This document shows, in pieces, positions 1,914 to 37,636 of a stretch of DNA of 40,108 bases; position 1 is the first letter of the stretch, and each line of letters opens with the position of its first letter. The notes under the pieces were generated by a model. It was not told the origin of the DNA. It worked only from the letters and a program-made list of their open reading frames with translations, and made no database searches. The translations under genes were made by a program, and so were the position numbers. The stretch lies in assembly GCA_029239235.1 (NCBI GenBank), contig JAQZBD010000005.1:1-40108 (forward strand), in the 5' to 3' direction. Origin of the DNA: Herbinix sp. GTDB taxonomy: Bacteria > Bacillota > Clostridia > Lachnospirales > Lachnospiraceae.

Positions 1914-1960
1914 ATATCTAAGTTATTTACCCAAATGATTCTGGAGGAATGGAGATTACC

Positions 1961-2749
1961 ATGAACGATATAATTGCTTCACCGTTTCAAGCGAATCAGT
2001 CTTCTGATAAATTACTTACAATTCTTGAGTTTTTGGCAGAACAGCCAGAACCGGTTCGTTTACAAGACCTGGCTGAATTGTGCAGTATGTATCCAAGCAC
2101 AGCATTACGGTTTTTGACTACGCTTCGTAACCGGGGCTATGTTGCTCAGGAAACAGAATCCGGAAAATATTATTTAACATTGAAGATATGCAGCCTTGCC
2201 CAGAGGAGGTCTGCACAGATTGATGTGCGTAACATTGCATTCCCTTTTATGCGCAGTATTGCAAATCTGTTTACTGAAAGCTGCAATTTAGCTGTTCAAA
2301 AGGATCTGACCGTAATATATATTGAAGTGGCCAATGTTGCCAATAAAGCTTTGATGAGCACTCAGCGCATAGGAAGTGCTGCTCCTATGCATTGTACCGG
2401 CATTGGAAAACTTTTTTTATCGGAATATACCTCCGCCGAACTTGATGCCTACTGCCAGGTCAAGGGTCTGGACAAGTATACTGAATATACACTTACTAAT
2501 AAAAGTACACTTCTTCAAGATCTTGAAGAGATACAATCGCTTGGATATGCCTTTGACAATCAAGAATGTGAGCTTGGCGTACGATGTATTGCGGTACCGA
2601 TTCGGGATTTTACCGGCCGAATTATTGCCGGGCTAAGTATAAGCGGTCCCAATGTCCGAATGACAAACGAACATATATACAGCCACTTACAAAATCTGCT
2701 TGATGCAGGAAATCAAATTTCAATTTATATGGGATATCAGCGGCTTTGA
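1961..2749 (+). CDS. IclR-family transcriptional regulator
   Basis: About 262 residues, the usual IclR size. The N-terminal winged helix (roughly residues 12-75) includes LQDLAELCSMYPSTALRFL, the helix-turn-helix. The C-terminal ligand-binding domain carries the family signatures GSAAPMHCTGIGKLF and ELGVRCIAVPIRDFTG. The ATG at 1961 is preferred to 1949: GGAG at 1951-1954 sits 6 nt before 1961, whereas the upstream GGAGG almost touches the 1949 codon. IclR proteins typically sense small aromatic or hydroxy/keto acids, which fits the sugar-acid genes around it. It is followed closely by an AraC gene and faces the flavoprotein gene divergently. The actual targets are inferred, not shown. Confidence 0.9.
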   Translation: MNDIIASPFQANQSSDKLLTILEFLAEQPEPVRLQDLAELCSMYPSTALRFLTTLRNRGYVAQETESGKYYLTLKICSLAQRRSAQIDVRNIAFPFMRSIANLFTESCNLAVQKDLTVIYIEVANVANKALMSTQRIGSAAPMHCTGIGKLFLSEYTSAELDAYCQVKGLDKYTEYTLTNKSTLLQDLEEIQSLGYAFDNQECELGVRCIAVPIRDFTGRIIAGLSISGPNVRMTNEHIYSHLQNLLDAGNQISIYMGYQRL

Positions 2750-2789
2750 TCTATGAATGATTTATCTGATAATGATTGGAGGGATGTCA

Positions 2790-4010
2790 GTGATTGGAAA
2801 AGAAGAGCGACTGGAAGTCTTTCAACAGCTGACTGCTTGTTGTTATAATATCTGGAACTGGAAATATGATACGCAATTTAACGTGATTGAGAGCAATTGT
2901 CCTCACGAATTATTATTTGATCAACTCTTTCTGTCGGAGGGACGCCGCAAGACAATTGATGAGCATATGCGTAAGTGCCATGTACCGATTGTCTATACAG
3001 CTTCAGCAATATTATCTTGGATTATAGCGTTCGAGAGATTAGAAGACAGCGTTACAGCCATCTATGTGAAAGGTCCATTTTTTAAAGGATTTAACGATGA
3101 AAAGAGTTATTCAGACATTCTTAAACCGCTTTGTCTGGATAAGGAAGCTGAATCCACTCTACGCTCCGATTTTCAGTCATTACCAATGTTGACTTCCTCC
3201 AGTATTATTCAGTTTGCAATAATGCTCCATTATAGCCTGAATGCTGAAACAATTTCAGCTTCGGAAGTATTGCCCTACAGTACAAAAGAATCGAAGCATA
3301 AAAAGCCCGGCAAGATATTAGTAGATCAGTTTGAGGGAACCAACGGCTATTGGAATACAGAACAAGAGCTGCTTTACAAAGTACGAAATGGAGATCTGAA
3401 TTATCGTGATATAATCGAACGTGCTTCTGTACTCTCTAATTGGAAGTATGATGGTGATAAAATGAATGTGGATTACTACAGACAGCACCTTCATGTTCTT
3501 TTAACATTGGTTTCTCGAGCTGCAGTGGAAGGCAGCCTCCCACGAAAAATATCATTTTCTTTGTGCTCCGAATACAGAAGAATGCTCAACCGGTGCTATA
3601 CTATTAGTGGTTTACATCAGATAAGTGATGTTATGTTATCAGACTATATCCAACGCGTTCATGAAATGAAGGAACTTTCTACCTGCCCCAGCCCAATACG
3701 CATGTGCTGTGCGTATATTGATACACATCCCGGGGAAAAATTGACATTAGAGTTTCTAGCAAAGAAAGTTGGCTATTCCGTGTATTATTTATCTAGAAAA
3801 TTTGAGCAGGAAGTAGGCATATCAATAACAGACTATATCTGCAATAAACGTCTTGAAAAAGCCAAATATATGCTGACTAGTACTAATTTAAGGATTGAAA
3901 AAATCAGCGAGGTATTAGGATTCGGTTCAAGAAGTTATTTTACATCTATATTCAGCAAGAATATGGGCATGACACCAAGTGCTTACCGCAGAAGCACTGA
4001 TACGATATAG
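2790..4010 (+). CDS. AraC-family transcriptional regulator
   Basis: About 406 residues. The C-terminus has two helix-turn-helix units typical of AraC (LTLEFLAKKVGYSVYYLSRK and ISEVLGFGSRSYFTSIFSK, ending in MTPSAYRR). The long N-terminal part (about 300 residues) should be the sensor; I do not recognise its family with confidence, though the first 110 residues look like a small-ligand sensory module. The track begins at 2757, but GGAGGG at 2778-2783 fits the GTG at 2790 (7-nt spacing) better than any ATG. It lies about 40 nt after IclR and is probably co-transcribed. It converges on the gluconate operon, a plausible target. Confidence 0.85.
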   Translation: MIGKEERLEVFQQLTACCYNIWNWKYDTQFNVIESNCPHELLFDQLFLSEGRRKTIDEHMRKCHVPIVYTASAILSWIIAFERLEDSVTAIYVKGPFFKGFNDEKSYSDILKPLCLDKEAESTLRSDFQSLPMLTSSSIIQFAIMLHYSLNAETISASEVLPYSTKESKHKKPGKILVDQFEGTNGYWNTEQELLYKVRNGDLNYRDIIERASVLSNWKYDGDKMNVDYYRQHLHVLLTLVSRAAVEGSLPRKISFSLCSEYRRMLNRCYTISGLHQISDVMLSDYIQRVHEMKELSTCPSPIRMCCAYIDTHPGEKLTLEFLAKKVGYSVYYLSRKFEQEVGISITDYICNKRLEKAKYMLTSTNLRIEKISEVLGFGSRSYFTSIFSKNMGMTPSAYRRSTDTI

Positions 4011-4145: not shown

Positions 4146-5426
4146 TTATATGAACTTACTTCTGTCTGCCCACAATCCTAAAGCCGGATTACTTATATAA
4201 AAAATCTCTTCGCCATTTTCCAAGGTATTAAAACCGTCCTTAAGCTTATCAGGATTGTAACGCTTAATCGCATCATCCAAGGGCATATAGTTGAAATTTA
4301 CTCCTTCCATTTCCTCTTTTGATAGTTTTTCTACTGCATAGGTGATAGAAAACCTATTGTCTGAAGATCCGTGAATAAGATGGGCAGCTACAGATAAGTT
4401 ACTTTGAAGATCCTCATGTTCCTTAATCAGCTCAAGAACCTTCTCTCTGCCTACATAACCATATTTTCTTATTAGTTCATCATTTCTGTCATCTTCGCCA
4501 AACTTTCTTACACCCGGCGCCAACACAATTAAGTCTCCACCATCAGCTATAGCCATTCTTGTCCTATAAACGGCCTTATTGCCCAACCATGTACTCTTAA
4601 ATTCCTTTCCATCCAAATAAACTATTACCTTTTTCAAAGGCTTATCAATAAAGTTAAGATTCTTTTGCTGGCTTTGCTTTACCGCTGACTCAAAAAGCTC
4701 TCTCTCCCTTCCTATGTAAAGTCCATGAATAGCTACTTTTCCTTCTTTGGCTGTGGTGACAGTTAGAACATACATTAAGGGAACCTCTGTAATGAAATTC
4801 TGTTCAGCAAAATCAAAAACCTTTCTTACTGGAGTTCCATCCTTGCCCATGATTCTCTCCATACCATAGAATGCCCCCAGCATATGAGACTTGTTAATCA
4901 TGCTGCTTCCTCCACAGCCAACAAATATATTTTTACTATAGTTTGCCATGCCAACAACCTCGTGAGGAACCACCTGACCTATGGAAATGATTAGATCATA
5001 AGACTTATCTATTATACGTTTGTTTACTTCTACATCTATTGCTTCGTTTACAAGGTCTTCAGATATGCTACTTACATATTCTTTAGGAACCTCTCCTATC
5101 TTTACAACATCATATCTCCAGTTGTGAACCACCATACATTCAAAAGGAACATCCGCACCAAAGAATTCCTCCCACTCGCCGCGACTCATTGGCTCATGTG
5201 TTCCTAACGCAGGCATTATATCCACTTGACAGGTACTTTTCAGCATGTTGTAGTATATGTTAGTGATTTTTCCTGCCCCTGAATGCATTCTTGTAAAATC
5301 AGGAGGCAGAAGAAGTACCTTCTGAAGTCGCGGCATTATTTCACGAACTGCCTGTTCCAATGACTTTGCTAACTCTTCATCGGCTATGCCATTCTCTCTA
5401 TTTTCTGTCACTATAATCTTCTGCAT
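4146..5426 (-). CDS. LarA-family nickel-pincer racemase/epimerase, probable D-gluconate 2-epimerase
   Basis: A 426-residue DUF2088/LarA protein. LarA enzymes use a nickel pincer nucleotide to racemise or epimerise 2-hydroxyacids by hydride transfer. Expected residues are visible: the His of PALGTHEPM, the His of GQVVPHEVVG, the cofactor-binding Lys of NYSKNIFVG and the His of NKSHMLG. The track's longer ORF is wrong: GGAGG lies just before the ATG at 5426, and the extra N-terminus overlaps gnd. It is third in an operon after gluconokinase and gnd, 22 nt after gnd. A gluconate 2-epimerase (GntE) subgroup of this superfamily is known, and this context points there, converting D-mannonate to D-gluconate. 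Lactate racemase is less likely. LarBCE cofactor genes are not in the window. Confidence 0.8.
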   Translation of the reverse strand: MQKIIVTENRENGIADEELAKSLEQAVREIMPRLQKVLLLPPDFTRMHSGAGKITNIYYNMLKSTCQVDIMPALGTHEPMSRGEWEEFFGADVPFECMVVHNWRYDVVKIGEVPKEYVSSISEDLVNEAIDVEVNKRIIDKSYDLIISIGQVVPHEVVGMANYSKNIFVGCGGSSMINKSHMLGAFYGMERIMGKDGTPVRKVFDFAEQNFITEVPLMYVLTVTTAKEGKVAIHGLYIGRERELFESAVKQSQQKNLNFIDKPLKKVIVYLDGKEFKSTWLGNKAVYRTRMAIADGGDLIVLAPGVRKFGEDDRNDELIRKYGYVGREKVLELIKEHEDLQSNLSVAAHLIHGSSDNRFSITYAVEKLSKEEMEGVNFNYMPLDDAIKRYNPDKLKDGFNTLENGEEIFYISNPALGLWADRSKFI

Positions 5427-5448
5427 CGCACCCTCCACCTTCCTTTCT

Positions 5449-6855
5449 TTAAAACCACTGGTAATGAAACACCCCTTCTTTATCGCTTCTCTCAAACGTA
5501 TGAGCGCCAAAATAGTCTCTTTGTGCTTGAAGCAGATTTGCCGGGAGCACTTTGCTTCTATAGCTATCAAAGTAAGCCAATGCACTTGAAAACGCCGGGG
5601 TTGGAACTCCATACTTAACAGCTGTGCAAATCACCTCTCTCCACGCATCCTGATAGCTCTCCAGTATGTTTTGGAAGTATGGATCAAGCATAAGGTTTGT
5701 CAGCTCTGGATTATTGTCATATGCTTCTTTTATTCTGTGAAGAAATTGTGCTCTAATAATACAGCCACCTCTAAATATCATTGCTATATTTCCGTAATTT
5801 AAATTCCAGCCATATTCCTTAGCGGCAGCTTTCATTAATGCAAAGCCTTGAGCATAAGAACAGATTTTACTTGCATAAAGAGCTTTTCTAACAGCCTCTA
5901 TCAGTGCCTTCTTATCACCAGCAAATTCCGGTAACGAAGGACCCCTAAGTATTTTACTTGCTGCCACACGCTCATCCTTTATTGCTGAAATACACCTAGC
6001 AAAAACAGCCTCAGTTATGGTTGGCGTTGATACTCCGAGATCTAACGCATTTTGGCTGGTCCATTTTCCTGTACCCTTCTGCCCGGCAGTATCAAGAATT
6101 ATGTCAATCATTGGCCTTCCTGTATCAAGGTCATACTTTGTAAATATTTCTTTTGTAATGTCTATTAAAAAGCTGTCTAATTCTCCTTCATTCCAATCTG
6201 CAAATACCTCATGAAGCTCCTTCTCATCAAGATGTATCACCTCTTTTAATACGGCATAAGCTTCACAGATTAATTGCATGTCACCGTACTCTATCCCGTT
6301 GTGAATCATCTTTACATAATGTCCGGCTCCATCCGTACCAATATAGGTGCAGCATGGTGCCCCTTCCACCTTTGCCGAAATTGCTTCTAATATAGGTTCA
6401 ACCAATCTGTAGGCATCTTCCTGTCCTCCAGGCATTATAGCCGGTCCCTTTAGAGCCCCTTCTTCTCCGCCGGAGATCCCTGTACCTATGTATCTATAGC
6501 CTTCCTTTTCTAGCTCCATATTTCTTCTCATCGTATCATCAAAGTAAGAATTCCCTCCATCTATCAGGATGTCACCTTTTTCAATGTAAGGCTTAAGCTG
6601 CTCTATTGTATCGTCAACAGCCTTTCCAGCCTTAATCATTATTATTATTTTTCTAGGCTTCTCCAGTGAGTTAACGAACTCGTCGATTGCGTAGGTCCCT
6701 AATACATTTTTTCCTTGAGCTTCATGAATCAGTTCATCTGTTTTTTCACGTGATCGATTGTAGACAGAAATACTATAACCTCTGCTTTCAATATTTAGTG
6801 CAAGATTTTTGCCCATTACTGCAAGTCCAATTACTCCTATTTGCTGTTTGCTCAT
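5449..6855 (-). CDS. gnd: 6-phosphogluconate dehydrogenase, decarboxylating
   Basis: A 468-residue enzyme of the long homodimeric class. It oxidises 6-phosphogluconate to ribulose 5-phosphate and CO2 in the cytosol. The dinucleotide-binding loop [12 protein letters not shown] is at residues 10-21, [14 protein letters not shown] is the family signature, and [19 protein letters not shown] carries the catalytic Lys and substrate-binding His/Asn. The C-terminal segment with [11 protein letters not shown] is also typical. A strong AAAGGAGG precedes the ATG at 6855. It sits between gluconokinase (60 nt upstream) and the LarA homologue (22 nt downstream), which makes a gluconate-to-pentose-phosphate operon. 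Nothing appears missing. Confidence 0.95.
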
Positions 6856-6915: not shown

Positions 6916-8442
6916 TTATTTTTGAAAATCTGCTAATTGCTCTAGTATTGGTGTTAACTTTTCAATGGATTGTTTATAGAGAGCATATAAAATTTTATAT
7001 GTGTCCTTAGTTTCTTTCATCGGCTTAAGTACTTGGCTTACGTTAATCAAATAGCTGCACTGCTCCAGCCTTTCTACCTCACCGACTGCTAGCATGCCAA
7101 GCATAATCGCCCCAATGCAGGAACTCTCGTAGTTGTCAGAAATGAAAACATCTAAATTGAAAACATTACAGAGCATTTGAACCCAGATTAATGAACGAAC
7201 AAAGCCACCATTGGCATAAATGCATTTTACATCTCCCACCAACTCGTTCAGAGCATCAAGTACATCATTCATATCGTAGCAAATACCTTCCAGTAATGCC
7301 CTTGCAAAATGACTTTTACTATGGCGGTCTGAAATACCAATGTATGCTCCTCTAAGATTTGTATTCCAGTATGGCGCTCTTTCCCCTGTTAAGAAAGGTA
7401 AGAATAGCAGCCCCTCACTCCCTGGCTTCGTGTCTTCAACCCTTCTATTTATTAACTCATAAGGATCAATATTTCGTTTTTTCGCCTGTTCCTTTTCGAC
7501 TTCTCCAAATTCATCTCTGAACCATCGATATACGATTCCGCCATTATTAATTGCTCCGCCTACAACATACTTGTTCTCGGAAAGATAATAACAAAAGCAC
7601 CTCTCTTTTTCGTCTGTTATAGGTTTATTAGCAACTACTCTCACAGCACCGCTTGTACCGATTGTCGCTGCTGCCACGCCAGGTTCAATTGCGTTAGAGC
7701 CAAGATTCGCAAGACACCCATCGCTAGCACCAACTACAAAGCGAGTTTTCTTCGTCAATCCTGTTTTTGCACAAATTTCAGGATCCAGGTTACTCATTAT
7801 ATGGGTCGTTGGAACTAGTCTTGATAGCTTATGCTCACCCAGCCGGAGTGTTTCAAGAATATCCTTATCCCACCGAAGGTCAAATATATTAAACATTCCT
7901 GTAGCAGAGGCAATGGAATAATCTACCACATATTCATGAAATAACTTATAAAAAATATATTCTTTTACTGAAATAAATTTATATGCTTTCTGATATAGGT
8001 CAGGCTCATTGTCCTTTAACCACATCAATTTATAAAGTGGAGACATAGAATGTGTCGGAGTTCCTGTTTTAATATAAAACTCTCTTCCTTTTCCATTTCT
8101 TTTGTACTCTTCAGCATATGGAGCACTCCTATTATCATTCCATATAATACAACGTGTTAATGGGTCTCCATTTTCATCCACTGCAATGATGCTGTGCATC
8201 ATAGAACTAAAGGATATAAATGCTATGTTTTCAGGATCTATATTGGCTCGTTCCATGCTATCCTTTAATGTTAAAATAACAGCAGCAAGCATCTCTTCGG
8301 GTTCTTGTTCTTTGAAATCCTTCCTTGGTGAATAAATTGGATATTCTTTCGTTGATTTAGACACTATTTTCCCATCTTTTGCAAAAACAATGGATTTCGT
8401 ACTAGTAGTACCGATATCGATTCCTAAATAATATTGTCCCAT
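6916..8442 (-). CDS. gntK: Gluconokinase (FGGY family)
   Basis: About 508 residues of the FGGY carbohydrate kinase fold. It probably phosphorylates D-gluconate to 6-phosphogluconate with ATP. The N-terminal phosphate-binding loop is YLGIDIGTTSTKSIVF, and the middle region has GASDGCLANLGSNAI and TIGTSGAVRV. LEGICYDMNDVLDAL and YANGGFVRSLIWVQML belong to the C-terminal ATPase lobe. The track's start is a TTG; the ATG at 8442 is preferred because GGAGG sits 5 nt before it. Gluconate specificity rests on the adjacent gnd; FGGY members also include xylulokinases, so a related sugar acid or ketose is possible. It is first gene of the operon, behind a long leader shared with the FdrA operon. Confidence 0.85.
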   Translation of the reverse strand: MGQYYLGIDIGTTSTKSIVFAKDGKIVSKSTKEYPIYSPRKDFKEQEPEEMLAAVILTLKDSMERANIDPENIAFISFSSMMHSIIAVDENGDPLTRCIIWNDNRSAPYAEEYKRNGKGREFYIKTGTPTHSMSPLYKLMWLKDNEPDLYQKAYKFISVKEYIFYKLFHEYVVDYSIASATGMFNIFDLRWDKDILETLRLGEHKLSRLVPTTHIMSNLDPEICAKTGLTKKTRFVVGASDGCLANLGSNAIEPGVAAATIGTSGAVRVVANKPITDEKERCFCYYLSENKYVVGGAINNGGIVYRWFRDEFGEVEKEQAKKRNIDPYELINRRVEDTKPGSEGLLFLPFLTGERAPYWNTNLRGAYIGISDRHSKSHFARALLEGICYDMNDVLDALNELVGDVKCIYANGGFVRSLIWVQMLCNVFNLDVFISDNYESSCIGAIMLGMLAVGEVERLEQCSYLINVSQVLKPMKETKDTYKILYALYKQSIEKLTPILEQLADFQK

Positions 8443-8821
8443 AGCTTCCTCCAATACTTATTATAACTACAACTTTGTTATTCAAGTTATTTGCAAATCT
8501 AAACTATTCTTCAATATTTTATTGTTCGTATTTTTAATCTAGTGTCATGATTTTATAAAGTTATAGCAGGCTCAATTGATAGTTTTTTAATCCTTTCACA
8601 TTGATAAAGCCCTTCCTTATAACAACAAACAATTTATGTATGTTTGGATAAATTGTTTGTAAAATATATTGTAAAGTATTCCGAAATCAAATAACAACCA
8701 ATATCTTGCTTCCAAAGCAAAAATATTGCCTTGCTTTATAATAAATCAATAATTTTATTCTTTCTCAAAAATACAATCTTTCTATATTACAATACAAAGT
8801 TAACTGTGCTTTCGCTCATTG
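8443..8821 (-). promoter_or_regulatory. Leader of the gluconate operon, containing a duplicated regulatory block
   Basis: A 379-nt gene-free stretch. From about 8583 to 8795 it aligns with 18443-18665, the leader of the FdrA operon. Conserved blocks include TCCTTTCACATTG, TTTGGATAAA, TTGTAAAGTATTCCGAAAT and TAACAACCAATATCTTG. On the minus strand a candidate promoter, TTTACA (8675-8670), 17 nt, TTTATC (8652-8647), is conserved at the same spacing in both copies. The part nearest gntK (8443-8582) has no counterpart in the other copy. Confidence 0.7.
8625..8660. promoter_or_regulatory. Perfect inverted repeat, candidate operator
   Basis: Two perfect 13-nt arms, ACAAACAATTTAT (8625-8637) and ATAAATTGTTTGT (8648-8660), with a 10-nt spacer. 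The right arm overlaps the candidate -10 box of the leader. The FdrA leader keeps a weaker 9-nt version (18490-18498 / 18513-18521, one mismatch, 14-nt spacer). No T-run follows, so an operator is more likely than a terminator. Confidence 0.5.
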
Positions 8822-10603
8822 TTACAGAGGTTTTTCTTTCTCAATATCAATGTTATCTTCTGCTAATTTAAATTTATTCACCAAATTTTTCAGCTCCAGC
8901 GCTAAAGCATCCACTTCTATGCACACTTGGTTTATATTTGTCATAGCGGCAAGGACTTCTTCCGTAGTTGCTGATGATTCCTCCGTGCTGGCAGCGTATT
9001 CTTCGGAAACGGCAGATACATTGCTTCCAAAATCTGCTACACCCCTGCGGCTCTGTTCCATATTAAAGGAAATCGTTTCTAGTTCTCCAATATCTCGGTT
9101 AATATCATCCAGAGCGCCTACAATAGCAATATATTTATCCTTTGTTTCATTTACGATATCCGCTTGTAGCTTTACTACGTACTTCACAACTTTACTTTCA
9201 CTGCAGGCAGTATTAATGCCAGATGTAATTTCATTTAATATCTCGTCTATAATCATCGTAGATTTTTTTGACTCCTCAGATAGTTTACTAATCTCATTTG
9301 CTACTACCGCGAATCCTTTTCCTGCTTCGCCGGCACTAGCTGCTTCGATGGAAGCATTCAGAGCCAATAGTTTTGTTTTTTTAGATATATCTGTTATTAT
9401 AGTGCTTGCCTCACCGATTCTACTTGCTTTTGAACTGGTCGCATCAATAATATTAAAGATTGTCAGGAAAGCATCTTCACTCTTTCTTGTTATTTTCTCC
9501 AATTTATTTACAGTCTCCAAACCCAACTCGGTGGCTCCCATAATATTTTGGCTGGCTGCCGATAACCCTTTCACATTTTCGGTGCTATGCGAAATTGCCC
9601 TTCCAAGATCAGTAATTTCTACTACTAATTGCTGAGCATCCTCAGCTTGGTGGAAAGCTCCCTCTGCTATATCACTGATTGTTTTTACTATTTCGTTCAT
9701 TGACCCAGTTACTTCACTTGTATTAACACGAAGTAAATTTGACGCGGTTGACAATTGCTCTGAGGTTTTGATTACCTGCGTAATGATTCCACGGAGTGAT
9801 ACGATCAGTTTGCCGATGGACTTTGACAATACTCCCAGTTCATCCTTACTGTTCATATCATATCCTCCGATTGATAGATTGTTATCTGCCAGCGACTCCA
9901 TATTACCCGTTAATTTCTTTATATTATCTCTTATATATCGGATTATGAAAATCGCAGCTATCATAGTTATTATGATAATAGCTAACATCCCTGACGATAC
10001 TGCAATAATTTCACCTAGCATCTCCTCATTAAGCTTCTCATCTGCCTGAGTGACGTAGGAATCCAGGGTAATTGTCATATGATCAAGAACTGTTCTAATT
10101 TGTTCAGCAAGCTCCTGCTTCTCCTTCCGTAGTTCAACAGAGCCATTACTCGTCATTATTTCATAAGAATCCCATTGGTCGTATAAGGTCATATACTGAT
10201 CCCTGAGTTCCAAAAGGCTTAGCTTAATTTCACTATCTTTAAACTCCAAATAAACTTCTTCCTTATTCTGAAGATTGTTCATTGCTTCATTGACCTGATC
10301 AAACACCAGTTTTTTTTTATCGGTATAATTGCTGCTTACTTGCTTGATTGTATCTCTATCTAACGAATTGCCATTGAGCAATACTTCCATCTCTAACATT
10401 GAGGTTTGATAAAAATCCCGCTTTGCATCATTTAATAAAGATGCATTATGATATATTACATCGTAATAAAGCCCACTTGCTTCCATGTTAGAATCATGAG
10501 CCAAAATGCTAAGCCTGGTTACAGCTCCGATAGACATTAACAATGTCGGCAATAACACCATCCATAATTTAAATGCTACTTTTGTATTTCTTATTAAGTT
10601 CAT
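8822..10603 (-). CDS. Methyl-accepting chemotaxis protein
   Basis: A 593-residue transmembrane chemoreceptor. The first helix is at about residues 11-33 and the second at about 190-222 ([20 protein letters not shown]); between them is an extracytoplasmic helical domain of 4HB_MCP type that should sense the attractant. A HAMP linker follows (about 223-275), then a long methylation and signalling region. The hairpin tip contains [20 protein letters not shown] and [19 protein letters not shown], which contact CheA/CheW. The protein ends ...EKEKPL with no CheR-binding pentapeptide. GGAAG precedes the ATG. It stands alone between the gluconate and glycerate gene sets, so a sugar-acid ligand is only a guess. 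Confidence 0.92.
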
Positions 10604-10926
10604 TCGTATCTTCCTTTCACGAAAACTTTATCGTATTTATCTAACAGTTTATTCTATCCGAGCCAAAATAAAATTCTGGAATATTTTCAAAAGGTTTCTA
10701 CAGCTCCATCATGATTATCATCTTGATTTCTTTGTCTACAAGAGCTTCCATTACCAGTGGTCTTAATCCTGAAACCAGTATTAATTATGCAGAATCTAAT
10801 ACTAAAAACTAAAGTCTGCACCGATGTGAAACAACAGGATGATGGAATTAAATCAATTTATTTTATTGATGATAGAATGGGTCTCCTCATAAGGAGACCC
10901 ATTCTATCATTCTTACATTCCCATAA
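10604..10926. other. Intergenic region without a recognisable gene
   Basis: A 323-nt gap between the chemoreceptor gene (transcribed leftward) and the secreted-protein gene. The track's small + strand ORFs here have no plausible ribosome site or recognisable motif. The only clear structure is the long perfect hairpin at 10870-10909. The chemoreceptor promoter must lie here, but I could not assign boxes confidently. Confidence 0.5.
10870..10909. terminator. Perfect 18-bp hairpin, probable terminator of the secreted-protein gene
   Basis: TGATAGAATGGGTCTCCT (10870-10887), loop CATA, then its exact reverse complement (10892-10909). It begins 17 nt beyond the stop codon of the minus-strand gene at 10927. 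The stem is exceptionally long and perfect, but a clear T-run is absent on both strands, so termination is likely rather than certain. Confidence 0.6.
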
Positions 10927-11905: not shown

Positions 11906-13042
11906 TTATTTATTGTCGAAACCTCGTATGAGTCGAAGTACATCAATCAGTGTCAATCGATAGTCTTTGGCACTACGGCTTGAAGATTCAGAAAAAGGTA
12001 ATGCCGCACGGTCAATGCTGAACATAGCTGTAATTCCGAGTTCATATGCTGCACTTGCACTGTCGTCAATGCATCCAACAATAGCAACAAGCGGTATATC
12101 ATGAGGTTTTGTTCTATTGGCAATTCCTGAAATAACCTTACCGTTGATACTCTGATTGTCTATTTTTCCTTCACCGGTTATGACAAGGTCTGCACCCTCT
12201 AGATGACTATCAAAATTCAGCATATCAAGAATTGCTTCGATTCCGGATTTTAATTCTGCGCCCAAGAAGGCCAGACATCCTGCACCCATGGCACCAGCCG
12301 CACCGGCTCCCGGAATCTCTGCAACATTAATTTGTAGCTGACTTTGCAGCAGATCTGACAGATGTCTAAGATTATCATCCAGTTGCTGTACCATTACAGC
12401 ATCGGCACCTTTCTGGGGTGCAAAAACATATGCTGCACCCTTAGGTCCATACATAGGGTTATCTACATCACACATAATTGTGATGCGAACATTCTTCAGA
12501 CGTTCAGACATTGCATCATTACATATTCTAGTGATTTGATCCAAGGTACCGCCGGTTGGAATAAACGAATCATTCTTCTGATTATAGAAAATGGTGCCAA
12601 GCGCCGCTGCGCATCCACAACCACCATCATTGGTAGCACTCCCACCGAGCCCAAGCAGTATTTCGGTACAGCCCTGCTCCAGTGCATGGGCAATGAGCTG
12701 ACCAACACCATAGGTTGTGGTCGCAGCGGGATTTTTTCGAGTTCCCACCAACGGAAGTCCGGAAACCGAAGCCATTTCAATGACTGCAGTATTTCCAAAG
12801 CGACCATAGATTGCCTCAATGGTTTCTTCCGGATATGGTCCGACAACAGTAAGTGATACCGACTCTCCCTGTAAGGTCTCCAAAAAGCATTCGACAGTAC
12901 CTTCTCCACCATCGGCGACCGGAAATGTAAGAACCTCACAGTCTGGGAAGATCTCAGGAACCGTTGTCTTGGCAATCCTTGCGATTTCCGAACTGGAAAG
13001 CGTACCCTTAAAAGAATCCGATATAATTATACATTTTTTCAT
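11906..13042 (-). CDS. glxK: Glycerate 2-kinase (GarK/GlxK family)
   Basis: A 378-residue enzyme, the standard length for the GarK/GlxK glycerate kinase family. It converts D-glycerate and ATP to 2-phosphoglycerate. Visible signatures are DSFKGTLSSSEIA near the N-terminus, FPVADGGEGTVECF, LGLGGSATNDGGCGCAAALG and DLVITGEGKIDNQSINGK. A GGAGG lies before the ATG at 13042. With the tartronate-semialdehyde reductase at 18768 it forms the lower glycerate pathway used for glyoxylate or glucarate breakdown. It follows the FdrA operon but is separated from it by a hairpin at 13121-13161, so it may have its own promoter or be partly read through. Family assignment is secure; GlxK versus GarK naming is arbitrary. 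Confidence 0.93.
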   Translation of the reverse strand: MKKCIIISDSFKGTLSSSEIARIAKTTVPEIFPDCEVLTFPVADGGEGTVECFLETLQGESVSLTVVGPYPEETIEAIYGRFGNTAVIEMASVSGLPLVGTRKNPAATTTYGVGQLIAHALEQGCTEILLGLGGSATNDGGCGCAAALGTIFYNQKNDSFIPTGGTLDQITRICNDAMSERLKNVRITIMCDVDNPMYGPKGAAYVFAPQKGADAVMVQQLDDNLRHLSDLLQSQLQINVAEIPGAGAAGAMGAGCLAFLGAELKSGIEAILDMLNFDSHLEGADLVITGEGKIDNQSINGKVISGIANRTKPHDIPLVAIVGCIDDSASAAYELGITAMFSIDRAALPFSESSSRSAKDYRLTLIDVLRLIRGFDNK

Positions 13043-13120
13043 AAAACCTCCATCTCTCGATTAACAATTGCTTTGTAACTATCAATGGTATCAATCTAAA
13101 ATATCATTTATAACAAAATA

Positions 13121-13161
13121 AGAGACAGCCTAAACGGTTGTACTCCACTTAAGCTGTCTCT
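13121..13161 (-). terminator. Terminator after the FdrA-type operon
   Basis: AGAGACAGCCTAA (13121-13133) pairs with TTAAGCTGTCTCT with one G-U, forming a 13-bp stem. On the minus strand it is followed by TATTTTGTTATAAA, a loose U-rich tail. It lies between DUF2877 and glycerate kinase and would separate the two transcripts. Confidence 0.65.
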
Positions 13162-13245
13162 CATGCTTCTAGCTAATAAGCTGCATGAACTCCTTAAACT
13201 GGTGGAAATACCGCCGGATTAGGTAACTCAACATCAGTATTAATA

Positions 13246-14196
13246 TTAAAAAAGTAGTAATTTACTCAGTTCCCTGTAAGCAATCTCCATACCAAACAGC
13301 ATATCCCGACCGGAGCTTTCACCCACCAAAGAAACGGCATAGATATAAGGTCTTAAATCTTCCTCCTTATCGGAAAAAACAGCCTTTACTAACTCTATGA
13401 TTACGTCGGAAAAACGCTCCTCCTGAGAACAGCACAAATACTTTAATGAAACATCGGTGGTTCGGTTGAACAATAATCTGTTAAAAGGGGTAAGGCTCCC
13501 AATATCTATCAGTTCTATCCACGCTTTTAAGTTTTGATTCGTTATACCAGCTGTGCTCTTGGCATAAAGTCTTGCCCCGGTATACACTGCGATTATTCCA
13601 ATCAATGCATCATCACAGGATGGTGTCAACCCGATACCTCGCCCTGTTAATTTCAATAAAATTGATTCCATTTTTGTATAATCTTTTTCCAGCCATGCTT
13701 TCGAAAAGCACTGCAGATCTTCAACCATTCTCATTCGCTGTTCTGAGCTTAAAACTGAGTCCTTATCATTAAAATAAGATTCCGTAAAATGATTTTTCAG
13801 TTCTATTAAATAACTTGTCAAATTAGGCAACCCAACCGAATCATTTGACATATTATTAATTACGATAGTACTTTGCCGAAGGCATTGTATATTTCCTTTC
13901 AGCACCTCAAAAATGGAATCAAAATAAAATTCATAATTTTTGCATAAAACCTTGGAGCCTATTGGCAGAAACATAAGCTGAGCAAAATATTTCTCTGTTA
14001 CGGTTATGCTATCCGGAATTCCTTTTGTACCAGAGGTAATCACTGTAATTAACCTAGTACCGCCTCCCGGCATCCTGAAAAGTATATTAAGTGCAGTACG
14101 AAACTTTGAGTGAATTACACCATATATTTCTGCCGAAGCATTAAAATCCTCCGTTAAGCGAGCTTCCATAATTTGTGACACGAATTTAACCTTCAA
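13246..14196 (-). CDS. DUF2877 protein (AllH/YlbF-like), putative acyltransferase subunit
   Basis: About 311-316 residues of the DUF2877 family. In E. coli the family member YlbF (AllH) works with FdrA (AllF) and YlbE (AllG) as oxamate carbamoyltransferase. The diagnostic motif is GIGLTPSCDDALIGI near residue 195; the family usually has GLTPSGDD, so the Ser-Cys-Asp-Asp here is a variant at a conserved spot. The start is unclear: the track's start at 14196 is a TTG, and a GTG at 14181 has a weak GAAGG 8 nt upstream. It follows the acetate-kinase homologue by 13 nt or so and is last in the operon. The role as a complex subunit is inferred from the family and neighbours. Confidence 0.75.
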   Translation of the reverse strand: MKVKFVSQIMEARLTEDFNASAEIYGVIHSKFRTALNILFRMPGGGTRLITVITSGTKGIPDSITVTEKYFAQLMFLPIGSKVLCKNYEFYFDSIFEVLKGNIQCLRQSTIVINNMSNDSVGLPNLTSYLIELKNHFTESYFNDKDSVLSSEQRMRMVEDLQCFSKAWLEKDYTKMESILLKLTGRGIGLTPSCDDALIGIIAVYTGARLYAKSTAGITNQNLKAWIELIDIGSLTPFNRLLFNRTTDVSLKYLCCSQEERFSDVIIELVKAVFSDKEEDLRPYIYAVSLVGESSGRDMLFGMEIAYRELSKLLLF

Positions 14197-14209
14197 CGCT
14201 TCAATTTTA

Positions 14210-15391
14210 TTATTCAGCGCTCTCTATTAATTTTTTAACTTGTCTGGCAACCATAAGTTCTTCGTTGGTCTCAAGTACCCATACAGATACCTTGCTCACC
14301 TCTGTATTGATTCTTTCCTCGCTGGCCTTAAGGTTTTTATTGCTGTCGATTTGCAGTGATAACCAACCCAACTCATTGCATACCATATCTCGGATTACCG
14401 CACTATGCTGTCCTATTCCACCTGTAAATACGATAGAATCCAGTCCGCCGAGGTATGACGTAAACATTCCGATATAACCTACAATGGAATCCACAAAGGC
14501 TCTCACAGCTAAATCAGCTCTCTGATTCCCCTCTTCTCGTGCTTGAAGAACCTCTCGAAGGTCATTGCTAACTCCACTGATACCTAAGAACCCGCCTTTT
14601 GTTGATAACTGCTTAAACACCTCATCATAATCACCATTGTATCTTTTGATCAAGTCAGGGATGCAAAAGGCATCGAAATCACCGACACGATTATTATGGA
14701 ATAATCCCGATTGAGTTGTTGCTCCCATGCTTTCTGCAATACTGATTCCATCTTTAATCGCACACAGAGAAGAAGAACCTCCCAGGTGAATTGAAACGAT
14801 TCGTTTCGCTGCCGGTTCCAATTCATTAAGCTTCCATGCTATGTAACTGTGACTGGAGCCATGAAAACCATATCTGCGGATTCCGTAGTCAGCGCACCAT
14901 TCGTATGGTACTCCGTATACCGCACGATACTCAGGCATAGTAGCGTGAAATGAAGTTTCAAAATAGGCAACCTGCTTTAAATGAGGATATTTATTCTGCA
15001 AGGAACGCATGGTACTTAGATAAATAGGATTATGTGCCGGTACAAAGGAGGAGAAATCGTCCATAACCTTCATCAAAACATTATCCACGAATTTTGCTCC
15101 GGTTATACTTCCACCATGAACAGCTTTATAGCCTGTTGCATCCACATCTCCTATGGTCTTAATCACATTGTTCTTTATCAATGTATCAACACACAGATCC
15201 ATAGCATCACCATGAATAGCGCAAGTACATTCCCCTTTTACAACGACTCCAGGCAACTTTATACTGTAGGCACCTTTCGGGCTTCCAATACTCTCTACTC
15301 CACCTGATGCCAATACCTTTTCTTCTGTACTAAAATCAAATAACTTAAATTTAAAACTCGTCGAACCCAAATTAAGAACCAGAATTTTCAT
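14210..15391 (-). CDS. Divergent acetate-kinase-family kinase in an FdrA operon
   Basis: About 393 residues with the full acetate kinase (AckA) fold: VLNLGSTSFKFKLFDF at the N-terminus, RYGFHGSSH, GGFLGISGVSNDLR, FTGGIGQHS and the C-terminal TNEELMVAR. Against my memory of the Methanosarcina enzyme, active-site positions differ: GHRVVHGGE reads GYKAVHGGS (Arg91 to Lys, Glu97 to Ser), FDTAFH reads FETSFH (Asp148 to Glu), and SMGMTPLEG-type reads SMGATTQSG (Pro232 to Thr). The phosphate-site His180 and Arg241 equivalents and Glu384 remain. It sits where related operons carry a carbamate kinase. It likely makes ATP from an acyl or carbamoyl phosphate released by the FdrA complex. The ATG at 15391 is preferred over 15412 because AAAGGGG precedes it. 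Confidence 0.8.
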   Translation of the reverse strand: MKILVLNLGSTSFKFKLFDFSTEEKVLASGGVESIGSPKGAYSIKLPGVVVKGECTCAIHGDAMDLCVDTLIKNNVIKTIGDVDATGYKAVHGGSITGAKFVDNVLMKVMDDFSSFVPAHNPIYLSTMRSLQNKYPHLKQVAYFETSFHATMPEYRAVYGVPYEWCADYGIRRYGFHGSSHSYIAWKLNELEPAAKRIVSIHLGGSSSLCAIKDGISIAESMGATTQSGLFHNNRVGDFDAFCIPDLIKRYNGDYDEVFKQLSTKGGFLGISGVSNDLREVLQAREEGNQRADLAVRAFVDSIVGYIGMFTSYLGGLDSIVFTGGIGQHSAVIRDMVCNELGWLSLQIDSNKNLKASEERINTEVSKVSVWVLETNEELMVARQVKKLIESAE

Positions 15392-15453
15392 ACAATATAA
15401 TACCCCTTTCATTTTTATATCTTCTATTGATATGTTTTCTGCTTATATGCCTC

Positions 15454-15633
15454 TTATATACCACCTAAAGCCTCTAATATTGCAATCATTTCCTTGTCTC
15501 CACCGGCCAGAGGCTTCCAGTCCACTTGAATAACCTCTGCTCCCTGCTTTCTTACTGCATCACCGAACATTTTGGGGCCAATATTAACAACTACTAATTC
15601 ACTTTTAAAAAGCTCATCTATTTTATTTTGCAT
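15454..15633 (-). CDS. 59-residue FdrA-type small protein
   Basis: Too short for the ORF track. The ATG at 15633 follows a strong GAGGAGGG 7-8 nt upstream and starts 2 nt after the FdrA stop, so translation is coupled. The peptide contains ELVVVNIGPKMFGDAVRKQG and VIQVDWKPLAGGDKEM. Small proteins with this VDWKPxAGG pattern are annotated in databases as FdrA domain proteins, as far as I recall. The same motif recurs near the N-terminus of the DUF1116 protein here (TWVDVKPAGE). It has no signal peptide or membrane segment. It is probably a small subunit of the FdrA complex. Its 62-nt distance to the kinase start leaves room for a separate ribosome site. Confidence 0.8.
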   Translation of the reverse strand: MQNKIDELFKSELVVVNIGPKMFGDAVRKQGAEVIQVDWKPLAGGDKEMIAILEALGGI

Positions 15634-15635
15634 AC

Positions 15636-17183
15636 TTAAGCCCTCCTCATTTTGCTCTTGATCATTTTTCCAGCAAGTAAAGCCGCCTGATAATTATCGT
15701 GGCAAACTATTACGCCTGCCTCTCTAAGCATTTCTTGTTGAAGGGAACGTTTCTGTGGATCAGCCTCGGTACCGCATACTGATGCAACGACTGCTAGTTT
15801 GCCACCGCGGTCACTTACGATTTTCATGGCTTCTTTTATATTGTTAATGACTGAACCAACGGGATCACTATTGACTGCAGGACCCAAAACGAAGTCAAGT
15901 AACATTACTGCCGTTTCAGGATCATTTGCTTCACGTATAATACCCATTGCTCTTGGTTCAGTGTCAATAACAGGGTGAGGACGGCTCATGGTAAACTCTT
16001 CATCACCGTAATCAACCACAGAGTTTTTATAGCTAACGGTAGCTTTCCCAAGCTTGAATTCCTCGCTCAAAGGAGCGTTGGAATAGATATCTCCAATATC
16101 TTCTCTCATAGCAACCATTGCTTCTTCAACAAAAGTTCCTCCACAGAAAAGTCCTCGTACATATTTTTGTTCCTTGGACATAGCTGTTGCATGCGCATCT
16201 GCTAACTCTTGGACTTTTTCCGGATCAGCTTCCTCCAGGACTATTCCTGCAAGACTTAATGCCTTCCGTGCTGCGGCCTCCAGATTATGAGCATATACAG
16301 CTCCCGACTTAAGAATCTCTTCCTTTTCACATCCCATGAAACAAATAATTACTGGTTTAACACATTTGGCCACCCTGTCTAATACGCTTTCAAGAGATTT
16401 ACTTTCCGGTTTTCGGGATATGAGAACAATTACTTTAGTTTCCTCATCTTTTTCCAGCGCATCAATACCAGAAAGCATAGTAAGTCCTCCGACTTTATCC
16501 TTTAAGTCCTTACCTCCGGTACCAATACCCTGTGAAATACCGCTTCCTGCTTCATGTACCAGTACTGAAACCTCCTGAAGTCCCACTCCTGATGCTGCAC
16601 AGATACCAATTGGTCCTTTTCTTACGATACTGCCCACTAAGAAGGATTTGCCATTAATATTAGCTACTCCGCAGTCAGGTCCCATGCAAAGAAGACCTTT
16701 TTCCTGCGCAAGAAGTTTTATTTCTCTCTCATCCTCAAGCGGTACATTATCACTGAATATCAATGTATGCAGACCCGAATTCAGTGCTTTAATTGCCTCT
16801 GCCTTCGCATATTCTCCAGGCACAGAGATTATGCAAAGGTTGGCTTTATTATTTGCCTGCACAGCAGATTTCACACTGGAATATGACGTTTTATCTTCGA
16901 CTGCAGCGCCCTCAGCTTTTAACAAGGCCTGAGCTTCCTCAATCGCTTGATCGCAGGTCGCTTGGTCTAGCGCACTAACGCCGATAATCATATCATTTGG
17001 ACCAGCTTCCCCTACAGATTTACTGTTCATACCGATATCTATAAAAATTTCCTTATTCGCTTGTGTACCCATTGCTACTAAAACAGTTGTAATTCCCTGT
17101 TTTTTCTTTAATGCAGAAGTGATAAACATCAACTGCACCGAGTCATAATATTGATTTGGATATACCTTAATTACAGATTCCAT
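15636..17183 (-). CDS. fdrA: FdrA-family protein (AllF-like acyltransferase subunit)
   Basis: About 515 residues, close to E. coli FdrA/AllF. The family resembles the alpha subunit of succinyl-CoA synthetase. The N-terminal domain (residues about 1-120) includes VAMGTQANKEIF, the middle CoA-ligase-like Rossmann part has GPIGICAASGVGLQEVSVLV and GSGISQGIGTGGKDL, and the C-terminal part has VRGLFCGGTFVEEAM and MLLDFVLGPAVNSDPVGS. In E. coli AllFGH phosphorolyses oxalurate to oxamate and carbamoyl phosphate. The ATG at 17183 is chosen: GGGGG precedes it and it lies 4 nt after the DUF1116 stop; the track's longer form overlaps that gene. It is followed at once by the 59-residue peptide. The substrate here may differ, given the acetate-kinase partner. 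Confidence 0.85.
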   Translation of the reverse strand: MESVIKVYPNQYYDSVQLMFITSALKKKQGITTVLVAMGTQANKEIFIDIGMNSKSVGEAGPNDMIIGVSALDQATCDQAIEEAQALLKAEGAAVEDKTSYSSVKSAVQANNKANLCIISVPGEYAKAEAIKALNSGLHTLIFSDNVPLEDEREIKLLAQEKGLLCMGPDCGVANINGKSFLVGSIVRKGPIGICAASGVGLQEVSVLVHEAGSGISQGIGTGGKDLKDKVGGLTMLSGIDALEKDEETKVIVLISRKPESKSLESVLDRVAKCVKPVIICFMGCEKEEILKSGAVYAHNLEAAARKALSLAGIVLEEADPEKVQELADAHATAMSKEQKYVRGLFCGGTFVEEAMVAMREDIGDIYSNAPLSEEFKLGKATVSYKNSVVDYGDEEFTMSRPHPVIDTEPRAMGIIREANDPETAVMLLDFVLGPAVNSDPVGSVINNIKEAMKIVSDRGGKLAVVASVCGTEADPQKRSLQQEMLREAGVIVCHDNYQAALLAGKMIKSKMRRA

Positions 17184-17187
17184 TTCA

Positions 17188-18441
17188 TTACCCCCTAACC
17201 AATTCATAAAAAGCTCTGAGTCCCTGTTTAAAACAATCCATTGGGACGAGCATTGAGCCTGCTCCGCCTTGCCCACCTACTAATCTAGCTGACCCTCCAT
17301 GGCTAGTCGGCGTAATATTTGTGGCAACTACCTTACGCATGTCAATTCCCACCGGGAAGCCACGGTAATCATCCCAAGGTATCGGTGCAAACAGATGCTC
17401 TCCCAGAGACACTTCTCTTGCATCCTCTGTTCTCTTTTTGGCATCTGCGAAGGATCCTCCTGTGAGTCTTACAAATGCCGGAGATGCTATGGCGGAAAAG
17501 CCTCCCAAGCCATAGATTTCCGTCACACAGCTGTCACCAAGATATCCTGCCAGATCCGCTTCTGTCCAGGATGGGTTTAACAGCTGCCCCAGTATCTTAG
17601 GTGCTGGTACAGAAAACCATTGCTTTCCGGTTCCTGCGAACTGCAGCCCAAACTCTGTTCCATTTCCACCCATGGCTACCATTACAGTGGACATTGGTAC
17701 GTTTCTAGCTGTTTCCAGAATTCCCATGGTACCTGCCATCATAACATGCAGGAAGGATCTATCATTAGCGGCAAATGCTCGAATTACGTCATCACGCTGT
17801 TCAATTTTAAGCTCCAGCAATGCAGGTATCAATTCTAATATCAGAGCCGAGGAGGAAGCTGGCTGGCGCACGTGGTTCTCATCTCCCATACCTGCAGTAC
17901 GTGCTAAAATCGTCTTCATGTTGATTCCACCCATACTTCTGACCGCTTCCCCAAGTGCGGGACCAAATACATCTCGAAACCAGGAAAGATCCTTTTCAAC
18001 ATCTTCATCATAAAACCCCCAACGGAGACATTTCGGGTTCGGCCCCGGATGAATAGAAGCATAGCCCACACCTCCGAAGACTGTATCCTTACCTACGATA
18101 ACAGGCATGGAGGCACTGATTACCGTAACAGCAGCACAGGACGCATTATAATCCTGAGCAGGTTTTATTGCTACCTCACCTGTTTTAATCATTTCCCAAG
18201 CTGCATCCATCGTGCTTGCTAAGCCTTCATGTATAATCGAACCACAGAGGGAGGTTCTTAATGTAGGCACAATATCATTCACATCCTCGAAGGGAGGACC
18301 TGGATGAAGCAGCATATTTTTTTCAAAGCCAGGAATAATCTCCCCTGCTGGTTTAACATCCACCCAGGTCGGTTGGCTGTTTAGAAGGATATCAATGACT
18401 TTTTCATTGGCTTTTTCTATTTGTTCTCTAATTGCATTCAT
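17188..18441 (-). CDS. DUF1116 protein (AllG/YlbE-like acyltransferase subunit)
   Basis: A 417-residue DUF1116 protein, matching the length of E. coli YlbE (AllG). The N-terminus TWVDVKPAGEIIPGFEK is typical of the family and echoes the VDWKPLAGG motif of the 59-residue peptide. Other family-like segments are LLHPGPPFEDVNDIVPTLR, HEGLASTMDAAWEM, ASIHPGPNPKCLRWGFYDED and LARTAGMGDENHVRQPASSS. It is the first gene of the operon and begins 10 nt after AAAGGA. Its leader is shared with the gluconate operon. In E. coli this subunit works with FdrA and DUF2877 in oxalurate phosphorolysis. Family identity is clear; substrate is not. Confidence 0.85.
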   Translation of the reverse strand: MNAIREQIEKANEKVIDILLNSQPTWVDVKPAGEIIPGFEKNMLLHPGPPFEDVNDIVPTLRTSLCGSIIHEGLASTMDAAWEMIKTGEVAIKPAQDYNASCAAVTVISASMPVIVGKDTVFGGVGYASIHPGPNPKCLRWGFYDEDVEKDLSWFRDVFGPALGEAVRSMGGINMKTILARTAGMGDENHVRQPASSSALILELIPALLELKIEQRDDVIRAFAANDRSFLHVMMAGTMGILETARNVPMSTVMVAMGGNGTEFGLQFAGTGKQWFSVPAPKILGQLLNPSWTEADLAGYLGDSCVTEIYGLGGFSAIASPAFVRLTGGSFADAKKRTEDAREVSLGEHLFAPIPWDDYRGFPVGIDMRKVVATNITPTSHGGSARLVGGQGGAGSMLVPMDCFKQGLRAFYELVRG

Positions 18442-18767
18442 TGTTTTTCAGTCCTTTCACATTGTTAAAGTATTTCCTTATAACAATCGACAATTTATTT
18501 CTGTACCTTTGGATAAACTGTATGTAGCATTCATTGTAAAGTATTCCGAAATTAATTAACAACCAATATCTTGTTGTCAGGAAAAAAATATTGCTCCATT
18601 TTTTTTACAAAACAATAATATGATTATTTTCACAAAAATACGATCTTTTAATATGTTTTGCAAGATACAAAAATTTCAGAGCTTCCGCTTGTTGCTGCAG
18701 AAGCTCTGTTACTGCCGTCGGCGACACAGCTACTATATGTTGCATAAAATATACAATACTCCTGTAA
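18442..18767 (-). promoter_or_regulatory. Leader of the FdrA operon with the second copy of the regulatory block
   Basis: A 326-nt gap. The stretch 18443-18665 aligns with the gluconate-operon leader at 8583-8795. The candidate promoter TTTACA (18540-18535), 17 nt, TTTATC (18517-18512) on the minus strand is conserved between copies. The shared block ends in the AAAGGA ribosome site of DUF1116. The rest contains the terminator of the preceding reductase gene. Confidence 0.7.
18677..18708 (-). terminator. Terminator of the tartronate-semialdehyde reductase gene
   Basis: CAGAGCTTC (18677-18685) pairs with GAAGCTCTG (18700-18708) across a 14-nt loop. On the minus strand it is followed by AAATTTTTGT. 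It is about 60 nt beyond the reductase stop and so separates that gene from the FdrA operon. Confidence 0.75.
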
Positions 18768-19649
18768 TTAATATATTGTATCACCGGCCATTTTTTCGTA
18801 GAACTTAGCTATGGCGCTATGATCAGACTGCCCCAAGCCATCCTTATGAAGGTTCTGCAGCATTTCCATAACCATAACGCTAAGCGGTATTGGTGCCCCG
18901 GTGGCATGAGCAGTTTCAATTGCGTTATTCAAATCTTTTATGTGAAGATCAATCTTGAAACCAGGTTGAGTGTTATTGGCAAGCATCATAGTACCTTTCG
19001 CATTCATGACTGTGCTTCCAGCCAGTCCGCCTTTAATAGCTTCATATACTTTGTTCGGATCCACACCAGCCCTTTTAGCTAGCATAAAAGCTTCAGATAC
19101 TGCGGCGATATTGACGGCAACAATAACCTGATTAGCCAGTTTGGTGGTATTACCCGCACCCGCTTCTCCGCAATATACAATGTCGGATCCCATACAGTTG
19201 AGGACAGGTACACATTCCTCGAACAGTTTTTGGTCACCACCGCACATAATTGAAAGTGTCCCGTCTATGGCTTTTGGTTCACCACCACTTACTGGTGCCT
19301 CCAACATTCTGACCCCTTTTATTGCACATTCCCTTGAAATCTCCTGGGATGCCAAGGGTGCTATGGAACTCATATCAATCAGTACCAGCCCTTCTTTGGC
19401 TGCGGAAAGTATTCCATTTACACCACAGACAACCTCTTTTACGTTGGGTGAATTCGGTAACATAGTGATAATGATATCATTGTTGCGAGCAAGTTCTGCA
19501 CCACTTGCAGCCGTTTTTGCGCCTTCATTAACAAGCATCGCTATATTTTCTTTATTCATATCGTTTACTGTAAGTTCATGTCCTGCCTGGATAAGGTTTT
19601 TTGCCATTGGCTTCCCCATAATTCCAAGTCCTATAAATCCTATTTTCAT
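18768..19649 (-). CDS. garR: 2-hydroxy-3-oxopropionate (tartronate semialdehyde) reductase
   Basis: A 293-residue beta-hydroxyacid dehydrogenase. It probably reduces tartronate semialdehyde to D-glycerate with NAD(P)H. The N-terminal GFIGLGIMGKPMAKNLI binds the cofactor, DMSSIAP and LEAPVSGGEPKAIDGTL bind substrate, and GNTTKLANQ holds the catalytic Lys. GLAGSTVMNAKG and GFKIDLHIKDLNNA are typical of the GarR/GlxR group. 3-hydroxyisobutyrate dehydrogenase is the main alternative. Pairing with glycerate kinase in the same region favours the glycerate role. The ribosome site is weak (GGGTG), and a small hairpin lies upstream. The gene precedes the FdrA operon but ends in its own terminator. Confidence 0.85.
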   Translation of the reverse strand: MKIGFIGLGIMGKPMAKNLIQAGHELTVNDMNKENIAMLVNEGAKTAASGAELARNNDIIITMLPNSPNVKEVVCGVNGILSAAKEGLVLIDMSSIAPLASQEISRECAIKGVRMLEAPVSGGEPKAIDGTLSIMCGGDQKLFEECVPVLNCMGSDIVYCGEAGAGNTTKLANQVIVAVNIAAVSEAFMLAKRAGVDPNKVYEAIKGGLAGSTVMNAKGTMMLANNTQPGFKIDLHIKDLNNAIETAHATGAPIPLSVMVMEMLQNLHKDGLGQSDHSAIAKFYEKMAGDTIY

Positions 19650-19666
19650 ATTTTACACCCATTGTA

Positions 19667-19688
19667 TATCGCAGGCTTGTCTGCGATA
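19667..19688. promoter_or_regulatory. Inverted repeat upstream of garR
   Basis: TATCGCAG (19667-19674) and CTGCGATA (19681-19688) are perfect arms with a 6-nt spacer, about 18 nt before the start codon of the reductase. With no T-run it could be an operator or an mRNA hairpin near the weak ribosome site. Confidence 0.35.
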
Positions 19689-19790
19689 CCGCCACTAATA
19701 AAAATGAGTAAAAGAATCTCTTCGTGGCGTCCTTTCTTTGTTTTTATTTTCTTTCACTCTTATCTTTTTTCAGATGTATTAATGATTTGA

Positions 19791-26916: not shown

Positions 26917-26988
26917 TTCATAAACCTCCCTTGATTTATTATATCATTATCTTTGATACCCTACACTATATTTTACCATCTTGCGATT

Positions 26989-28811: not shown

Positions 28812-28861
28812 CTTAAAAACCTCCAACTCTTAATTTAAAATCTCTGCAACTCTTTACATTC

Positions 28862-28889
28862 ATTATCTCATTTTCATACTGAATCTCAA
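28862..28889 (-). promoter_or_regulatory. Promoter of the importer-YesMN-GHL operon
   Basis: Minus strand TTGAGA (28889-28884), 16-nt spacer, GATAAT (28867-28862). The upstream flank (28890-28925) reads AAAAAAAGACATGGAAATAT then ATAAAAAC. The same boxes and flank occur upstream of the second binding protein (37637-37700) and, less exactly, of the GH43 gene (31839-31905), suggesting a common activator site, probably for YesN. Confidence 0.65.
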
Positions 28890-28961
28890 TGGAGTGTTTT
28901 TATATATTTCCATGTCTTTTTTTAGATATCTTATTGATCAGAATGAATTTATAGCCATTCA

Positions 28962-37469: not shown

Positions 37470-37636
37470 TTCGTAAACCTCCCTTGATTTTTTATATCAT
37501 TTTTTTGATACCCTCCACTATATTTTTCCGCTTCCCACTTGTTTTCAAAACCTGCTAGGTAGTCGTCTGCATTCACTATAAGAAAGCTGTTTCCCTTCCA
37601 ACTCTTACCTTTAAAACTTTACAACTTTTTACACTT

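Follow-up and report, generated by a model that had tools for sequence, protein, structure and literature searches.

A duplicated upstream region, probably carrying a promoter, precedes a gluconate/hexonate operon and an FdrA operon in Herbinix sp.

We found two copies of a single upstream region in front of two operons of Herbinix sp. (contig JAQZBD010000005.1; we call the window the whole stretch of 40,108 nucleotides that was analysed). The most probable explanation, to which we give a probability of roughly 70%, is an intragenomic promoter duplication from a donor resembling copy B, which would put the gntK-gnd-larA operon under the promoter of the FdrA operon. The allG-fdrA intergenic region, with its terminator, promoter, 5'UTR, Shine-Dalgarno sequence and start codon, would have been copied to the front of gntK-gnd-larA; alternatively, a single promoter of this kind would be the ancestor of both copies. 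The copied promoter would give gntK an upstream transcription start, and one DNA-level signal would then drive both the gluconate/hexonate operon and the FdrA operon. We infer the direction of copying, the activity of the promoter, the action of one activator or repressor on both copies and the joint induction of the two pathways.

The two copies are the following:
8575-8828, minus strand: copy A, located before the gluconate/hexonate operon (local alignment to 18436-18701; E 6.7e-42 in the genome)
18436-18701, minus strand: copy B, duplicated upstream region before allG-fdrA, the likely donor-like copy (same alignment; ends at the allG Shine-Dalgarno and ATG)

They align over 250 ungapped columns with 81.2% identity, plus several short indels. 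The alignment score (194.5) is far above those of 500 dinucleotide-preserving shuffles (mean 23.2, sd 2.8, maximum 41.5), so the resemblance is not AT-rich chance similarity. The E-value given for the pair comes from a BLAST search of the whole 4.97 Mb genome, where the next-best match was a 32 nt AT-rich sequence (E 5.7e-4). No third site was found in the genome for the core 20-mer GATTTCGGAATACTTTACAA, even when up to 3 mismatches were allowed. The genome-wide motif search proposed in an earlier, sequence-only reading of this DNA thus returned only these two copies, i.e., the region is present exactly twice, at sites 10 kb apart. That reading had described a leader of about 210 bp duplicated before two operons (8583-8795 and 18443-18665). 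The duplication is borne out, with an alignment that reaches slightly past these limits, and the three blocks quoted as identical were all found, identical in both segments. The similarity had also been placed outside genes, which is correct for most of the unit but not at two of its ends: in copy B it extends a few bases beyond the allG start codon, and is therefore not strictly intergenic there, and the far end of copy A overlaps the final codons of the MCP gene (8822-8828).

Both copies do lie upstream of minus-strand operons, as had been proposed. The operon after copy A (gntK-gnd-larA-like) runs from 8442 down to 4146, and the one after copy B (allG-fdrA-kinase-allH-glycerate kinase) from 18441 down to 11906. 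Their annotated genes include:
6916-8442, minus strand: gntK-like FGGY kinase opening the operon after copy A, its ATG (8442) preceded by GGAGG (TIGR01314, 600 bits vs a cut-off of 649)
5449-6855, minus strand: gnd, decarboxylating 6-phosphogluconate dehydrogenase (NCBIfam equivalog above cut-off)
4146-5612, minus strand: LarA-like nickel-pincer putative hexonate epimerase, group 18 (NF052594, 661.7 bits, above cut-off)
17188-18441, minus strand: allG homologue, first gene after copy B (PF06545, E 4.8e-61)
15636-17276, minus strand: fdrA/allF homologue (PRK06091 FdrA, 415 bits vs a cut-off of 433)
14210-15412, minus strand: acetate-kinase-family kinase in the fdrA operon (PF00871, E 1.1e-96)
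13246-14196, minus strand: allH homologue (PF11392, E 9.3e-20)

The first genes of the two operons are not homologous (FGGY kinase vs AllG), and self-comparison of the window revealed no coding match between the operons. Gluconokinase is the nearest family of the FGGY kinase, and LarA proteins of group 18 were proposed to epimerise a hexonate (PMC7583248). Judging from these assignments, the label "gluconate use" seems fair for the operon after copy A, which possibly starts from another hexonate. A tartronate semialdehyde reductase gene lies directly upstream of the copy B leader. Elsewhere between the two leaders, a 42-base near-perfect palindrome (95%, 10869-10910) lies between the MCP gene and a TIG-domain gene, or close to where the upstream region of the latter begins, and is probably a terminator.

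Followed from upstream to downstream, the shared unit comprises the end of the preceding gene or its terminator, an AT-rich stretch, a sigma-A-like promoter, a 5'UTR, a Shine-Dalgarno sequence and a start codon. As delimited by the alignment, the homologous unit is the whole intergenic region. Its elements are:
8668-8697, minus strand: putative sigma-A promoter of copy A, TTGTTA (8692-8697), 18 nt, TACAAT (8668-8673) (consensus scan)
18533-18562, minus strand: putative sigma-A promoter of copy B, TTGTTA (18557-18562), 18 nt, TACAAT (18533-18538) (consensus scan)
8591-8596, minus strand: orphan Shine-Dalgarno AAAGGA of copy A (homologous to the allG Shine-Dalgarno in the alignment)
18452-18457, minus strand: allG Shine-Dalgarno AAAGGA of copy B, with the start codon at 18441 (sequence and alignment)
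18677-18708, minus strand: intrinsic terminator of copy B, at its upstream end and following the gene for tartronate semialdehyde reductase (good hairpin)

The -35 and -10 hexamers and their 18-nt spacing are identical and in register between the two copies. The would-be 5'UTR, of about 85-90 nt, ends in the Shine-Dalgarno AAAGGA and the start codon. The best evidence on the direction of copying is found at this end: copy B leads into a live gene start, whereas in copy A the Shine-Dalgarno is an orphan and the triplet homologous to the allG start codon reads ATC, not ATG, which argues that copy A came from a B-like region. The start of gntK, with its own GGAGG, lies about 140 nt downstream of the orphan Shine-Dalgarno, and self-comparison of the window revealed no allG remnant between copy A and gntK. 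The copy A counterpart of the copy B terminator is degenerate in the alignment. Both leaders also keep an ATG-TGA start-stop pair with AAGGAA upstream, directly before AAAGGA (minus strand, 8596-8601 and 18457-18462).

The conservation between the copies peaks over the promoter, and a candidate site adjoins it:
8668-8708, minus strand: gap-free block of highest conservation, matching 18533-18573 at 39 of 41 positions (alignment)
8699-8728, minus strand: candidate activator site adjoining the -35 of copy A, CAATATTTTT-N10-CAAGATATTG (alignment)
18564-18593, minus strand: the same candidate activator site in copy B (alignment)

The block contrasts with its flanks, which are 77% (distal part) and 80% (UTR) identical (Fisher p 0.014, in a test chosen post hoc). 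The clustering of matches across the two copies is only mildly non-random (p from 0.03 to 0.42 with three measures), and in a consensus scan promoter-like sites were no more frequent in copy A than in shuffles. That selection has kept the promoter is a reasonable, but not proven, reading of this pattern. Conservation of noncoding DNA is here a weaker argument than it looks, because no strong selection is needed for fairly recent duplicates to be 81% identical.

A second duplication lies in the right half of the window. A transporter operon (28946 to 25327) recurs incompletely at 37723 to 35829. This partial copy keeps the upstream region (28822-28946 vs 37597-37723, 83% over 127 bases) and the gene of the solute-binding protein (25327-26977 vs 35880-37529, 85% at the DNA level) but has lost the permease and two-component genes. 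It also retains 57 bases that match the 3' part of a GHL6 gene (19828-19884 vs 35829-35885). GHL6-type proteins are encoded twice in the window (19791-21794 and 38013-40055) and share 40% identity. Copy A could plausibly have arisen in this way too, by duplication and subsequent deletion. We discarded the transporter duplication as a clock, since the leaders differ less (JC 0.22) than its 4-fold sites (JC 0.43), and the ages need not match. The leader duplication may be a separate event.

This second, decayed duplication would also suit a neutral remnant of a segmental duplication, where the region before gntK is unused and decaying. The 81% identity with weakly clustered matches, the orphan Shine-Dalgarno and the degenerate terminator of copy A are all compatible with such decay. 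Yet the promoter hexamers and the block with 39 of 41 identical positions stand out from flanks at 77-80%, and the stretch upstream of gntK has no other match in the window, as if only the regulatory unit had been kept; we regard a mere remnant as unlikely. A mobile or repeated element of the MITE type, inserted twice, would account for two discrete copies with definable ends. One of these ends is a start codon, however, and the alignment ends show neither terminal inverted repeats nor target duplications. The 4.97 Mb genome has just the two copies, and the relatives, plasmids and viral contigs searched have none, making such an element extremely improbable.

The sequence-only reading had also suggested a structured leader RNA, i.e., a riboswitch, a T-box-like or a protein-binding element common to both operons. 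Part of the conserved sequence is indeed 5'UTR, and a hairpin or palindrome was found at its start in copy A:
8624-8660, minus strand: hairpin or palindrome with a stem of 13 bp and a loop of 10 nt, where the 5'UTR begins (folds)

In copy B, 9 bp of this stem (one of them G-U) persist around a loop enlarged from 10 to 14 nt, a change that an RNA hairpin would tolerate better than a DNA operator, but this version does not exceed chance (z 0.01). The fold z-scores of the UTRs are -1.85 in copy A, mildly better than shuffles, and 0.01 in copy B, no better. No Rfam family matched the window at gathering scores, and a search of 8400-8900 by E-value gave only a weak sRNA match (E 0.82), far below its gathering score. 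None of the 48 pairs of the consensus structure is compensatory, in a comparison limited to two sequences. Finally, the best-conserved block sits upstream of the expected transcription start, and a promoter-level explanation is therefore preferred. The suggestion of a structured RNA was not upheld, and we consider it very unlikely. Promoter duplication draws on homology well above shuffles, the uniqueness of the pair, the inclusion of the full intergenic unit up to the allG start, the identical hexamers and the local precedent of duplication. Against it count the lack of a close relative with either copy, the weak clustering, the post hoc character of the block test and a frequency of promoter-like sites at copy A that is not above shuffles.

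A shared regulator had been proposed as well. The duplicated promoter region, with its block of 39 identical positions out of 41, makes shared control the default expectation, since the promoter itself is shared, but no regulator binding site was established. In the candidate site adjoining the -35, the arms are identical in both copies, the spacing is constant and the centre has diverged. An inverted repeat beside the -35 with this pattern would fit a dimer site, but it is only a lead because an equally good shared repeat arises in about 23% of column shuffles, and we do not claim it as an operator. A sigma-54 promoter in copy A (GGCAATATTTTTGC) was rejected, as copy B does not conserve its -24 and -12 dinucleotides. 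PucR was considered as the regulator, on the grounds of a possible purine-type operon and of TTGGTT, which forms part of the PucR box; the genome encodes seven HTH_30 proteins, with nothing tying them to this site. Adjacent to each other on the plus strand, beside the gluconate operon, are genes for an IclR-family (KdgR/BhcR-like, 1949-2749) and an AraC-family regulator (2757-4010), together spanning 1949-4010. They are the nearest candidates for the control of the gluconate operon. The AraC protein was not retained as a partner: it is 34% identical, over its C-terminal 162 residues, to an AraC protein encoded beside the fdrA operon of another genus, and orthology was not established.

We searched for the leader beyond this genome. 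It was absent from about 145 relatives, which gave only short chance-like matches, from 392 genomes of the order and from plasmids, and the core 20-mer was absent from viral contigs. Another genus of the family and Oscillospiraceae MAGs encode AllG homologues with 54-61% identity, and other families of the class encode gluconokinase homologues with 50-56% identity. A nhmmer profile of copies A and B found no leader upstream of the allG/gntK homologues in 99 loci, and the arrangement therefore looks lineage-specific. A misbinned contig was discarded as an explanation, as the tetranucleotide profile of the window fits the contigs of its own genome (r 0.88) better than relatives (0.75-0.81).

AllG-FdrA was found together with an acetate-kinase-family gene in three lineages, i.e., in the window (11906-21794) and in two others (L105:4870-16267 and L044:3103-10729). 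Its companions there are a GHL6-type protein (37% identical between the window and L105), tartronate semialdehyde reductase and a glycerate kinase (window and L105, from two unrelated families) or an alpha/beta hydrolase (L105 and L044). These recurring neighbours suggest that the AllG/FdrA homologues of these lineages may act in an acyl-phosphate-releasing sugar-acid pathway and not in allantoin breakdown. A further, doubtful possibility is that both operons form one regulon for an undescribed sugar-acid pathway, where AllG/FdrA/AllH would release an acyl phosphate for the acetate-kinase-type enzyme, and the captured promoter would coordinate this with the route of the nickel-dependent hexonate epimerase and gluconate kinase. 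In Escherichia coli, AllFGH is an oxamic transcarbamylase working with the carbamate kinase AllK (PMC11326118), and regulation by AllS and ArcA is the subject of PMC12535856. The Herbinix operon resembles it in uniting homologues of AllF/FdrA, AllG and AllH with an ATP-yielding kinase. However, its kinase is of the acetate kinase family instead of a carbamate kinase, and its neighbours encode tartronate semialdehyde reductase, glycerate kinase and a GHL6 protein.

The two leaders provide a clear natural case of a complete promoter unit seemingly copied within one chromosome to the front of a second operon, with a fingerprint of the direction left behind in the orphan Shine-Dalgarno and the dead start codon. 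The duplicated promoter probably ties both operons to one signal. If active, it would join two catabolic routes under that signal without a change of regulator. It would also offer a functional clue that the FdrA/AllG system, still poorly understood, works alongside sugar-acid catabolism when paired with an acetate-kinase-type enzyme, and not only in allantoin breakdown. The pair is a nice but ordinary example of a known phenomenon, promoter reuse. Promoter propagation, or reuse, in prokaryotes was reportedly described by Matus-Garcia, Nijveen and van Passel in 2012, in work cited by PMC9208149. The likeness lies in a promoter-bearing noncoding region that is multi-copy in one genome, before non-homologous genes; the Herbinix case differs in having two copies only, 10 kb apart and 81% alike, without a mobile element. 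Horizontal regulatory transfer, or regulatory switching, in which intergenic regions are replaced by recombination, is attributed to Oren et al. 2014 in PMC5890482. As outlined there, it shares with our case an intergenic region gained independently of the genes under its control, whereas in Herbinix one chromosome carries both copies, and the original upstream sequence is still present behind the copy.
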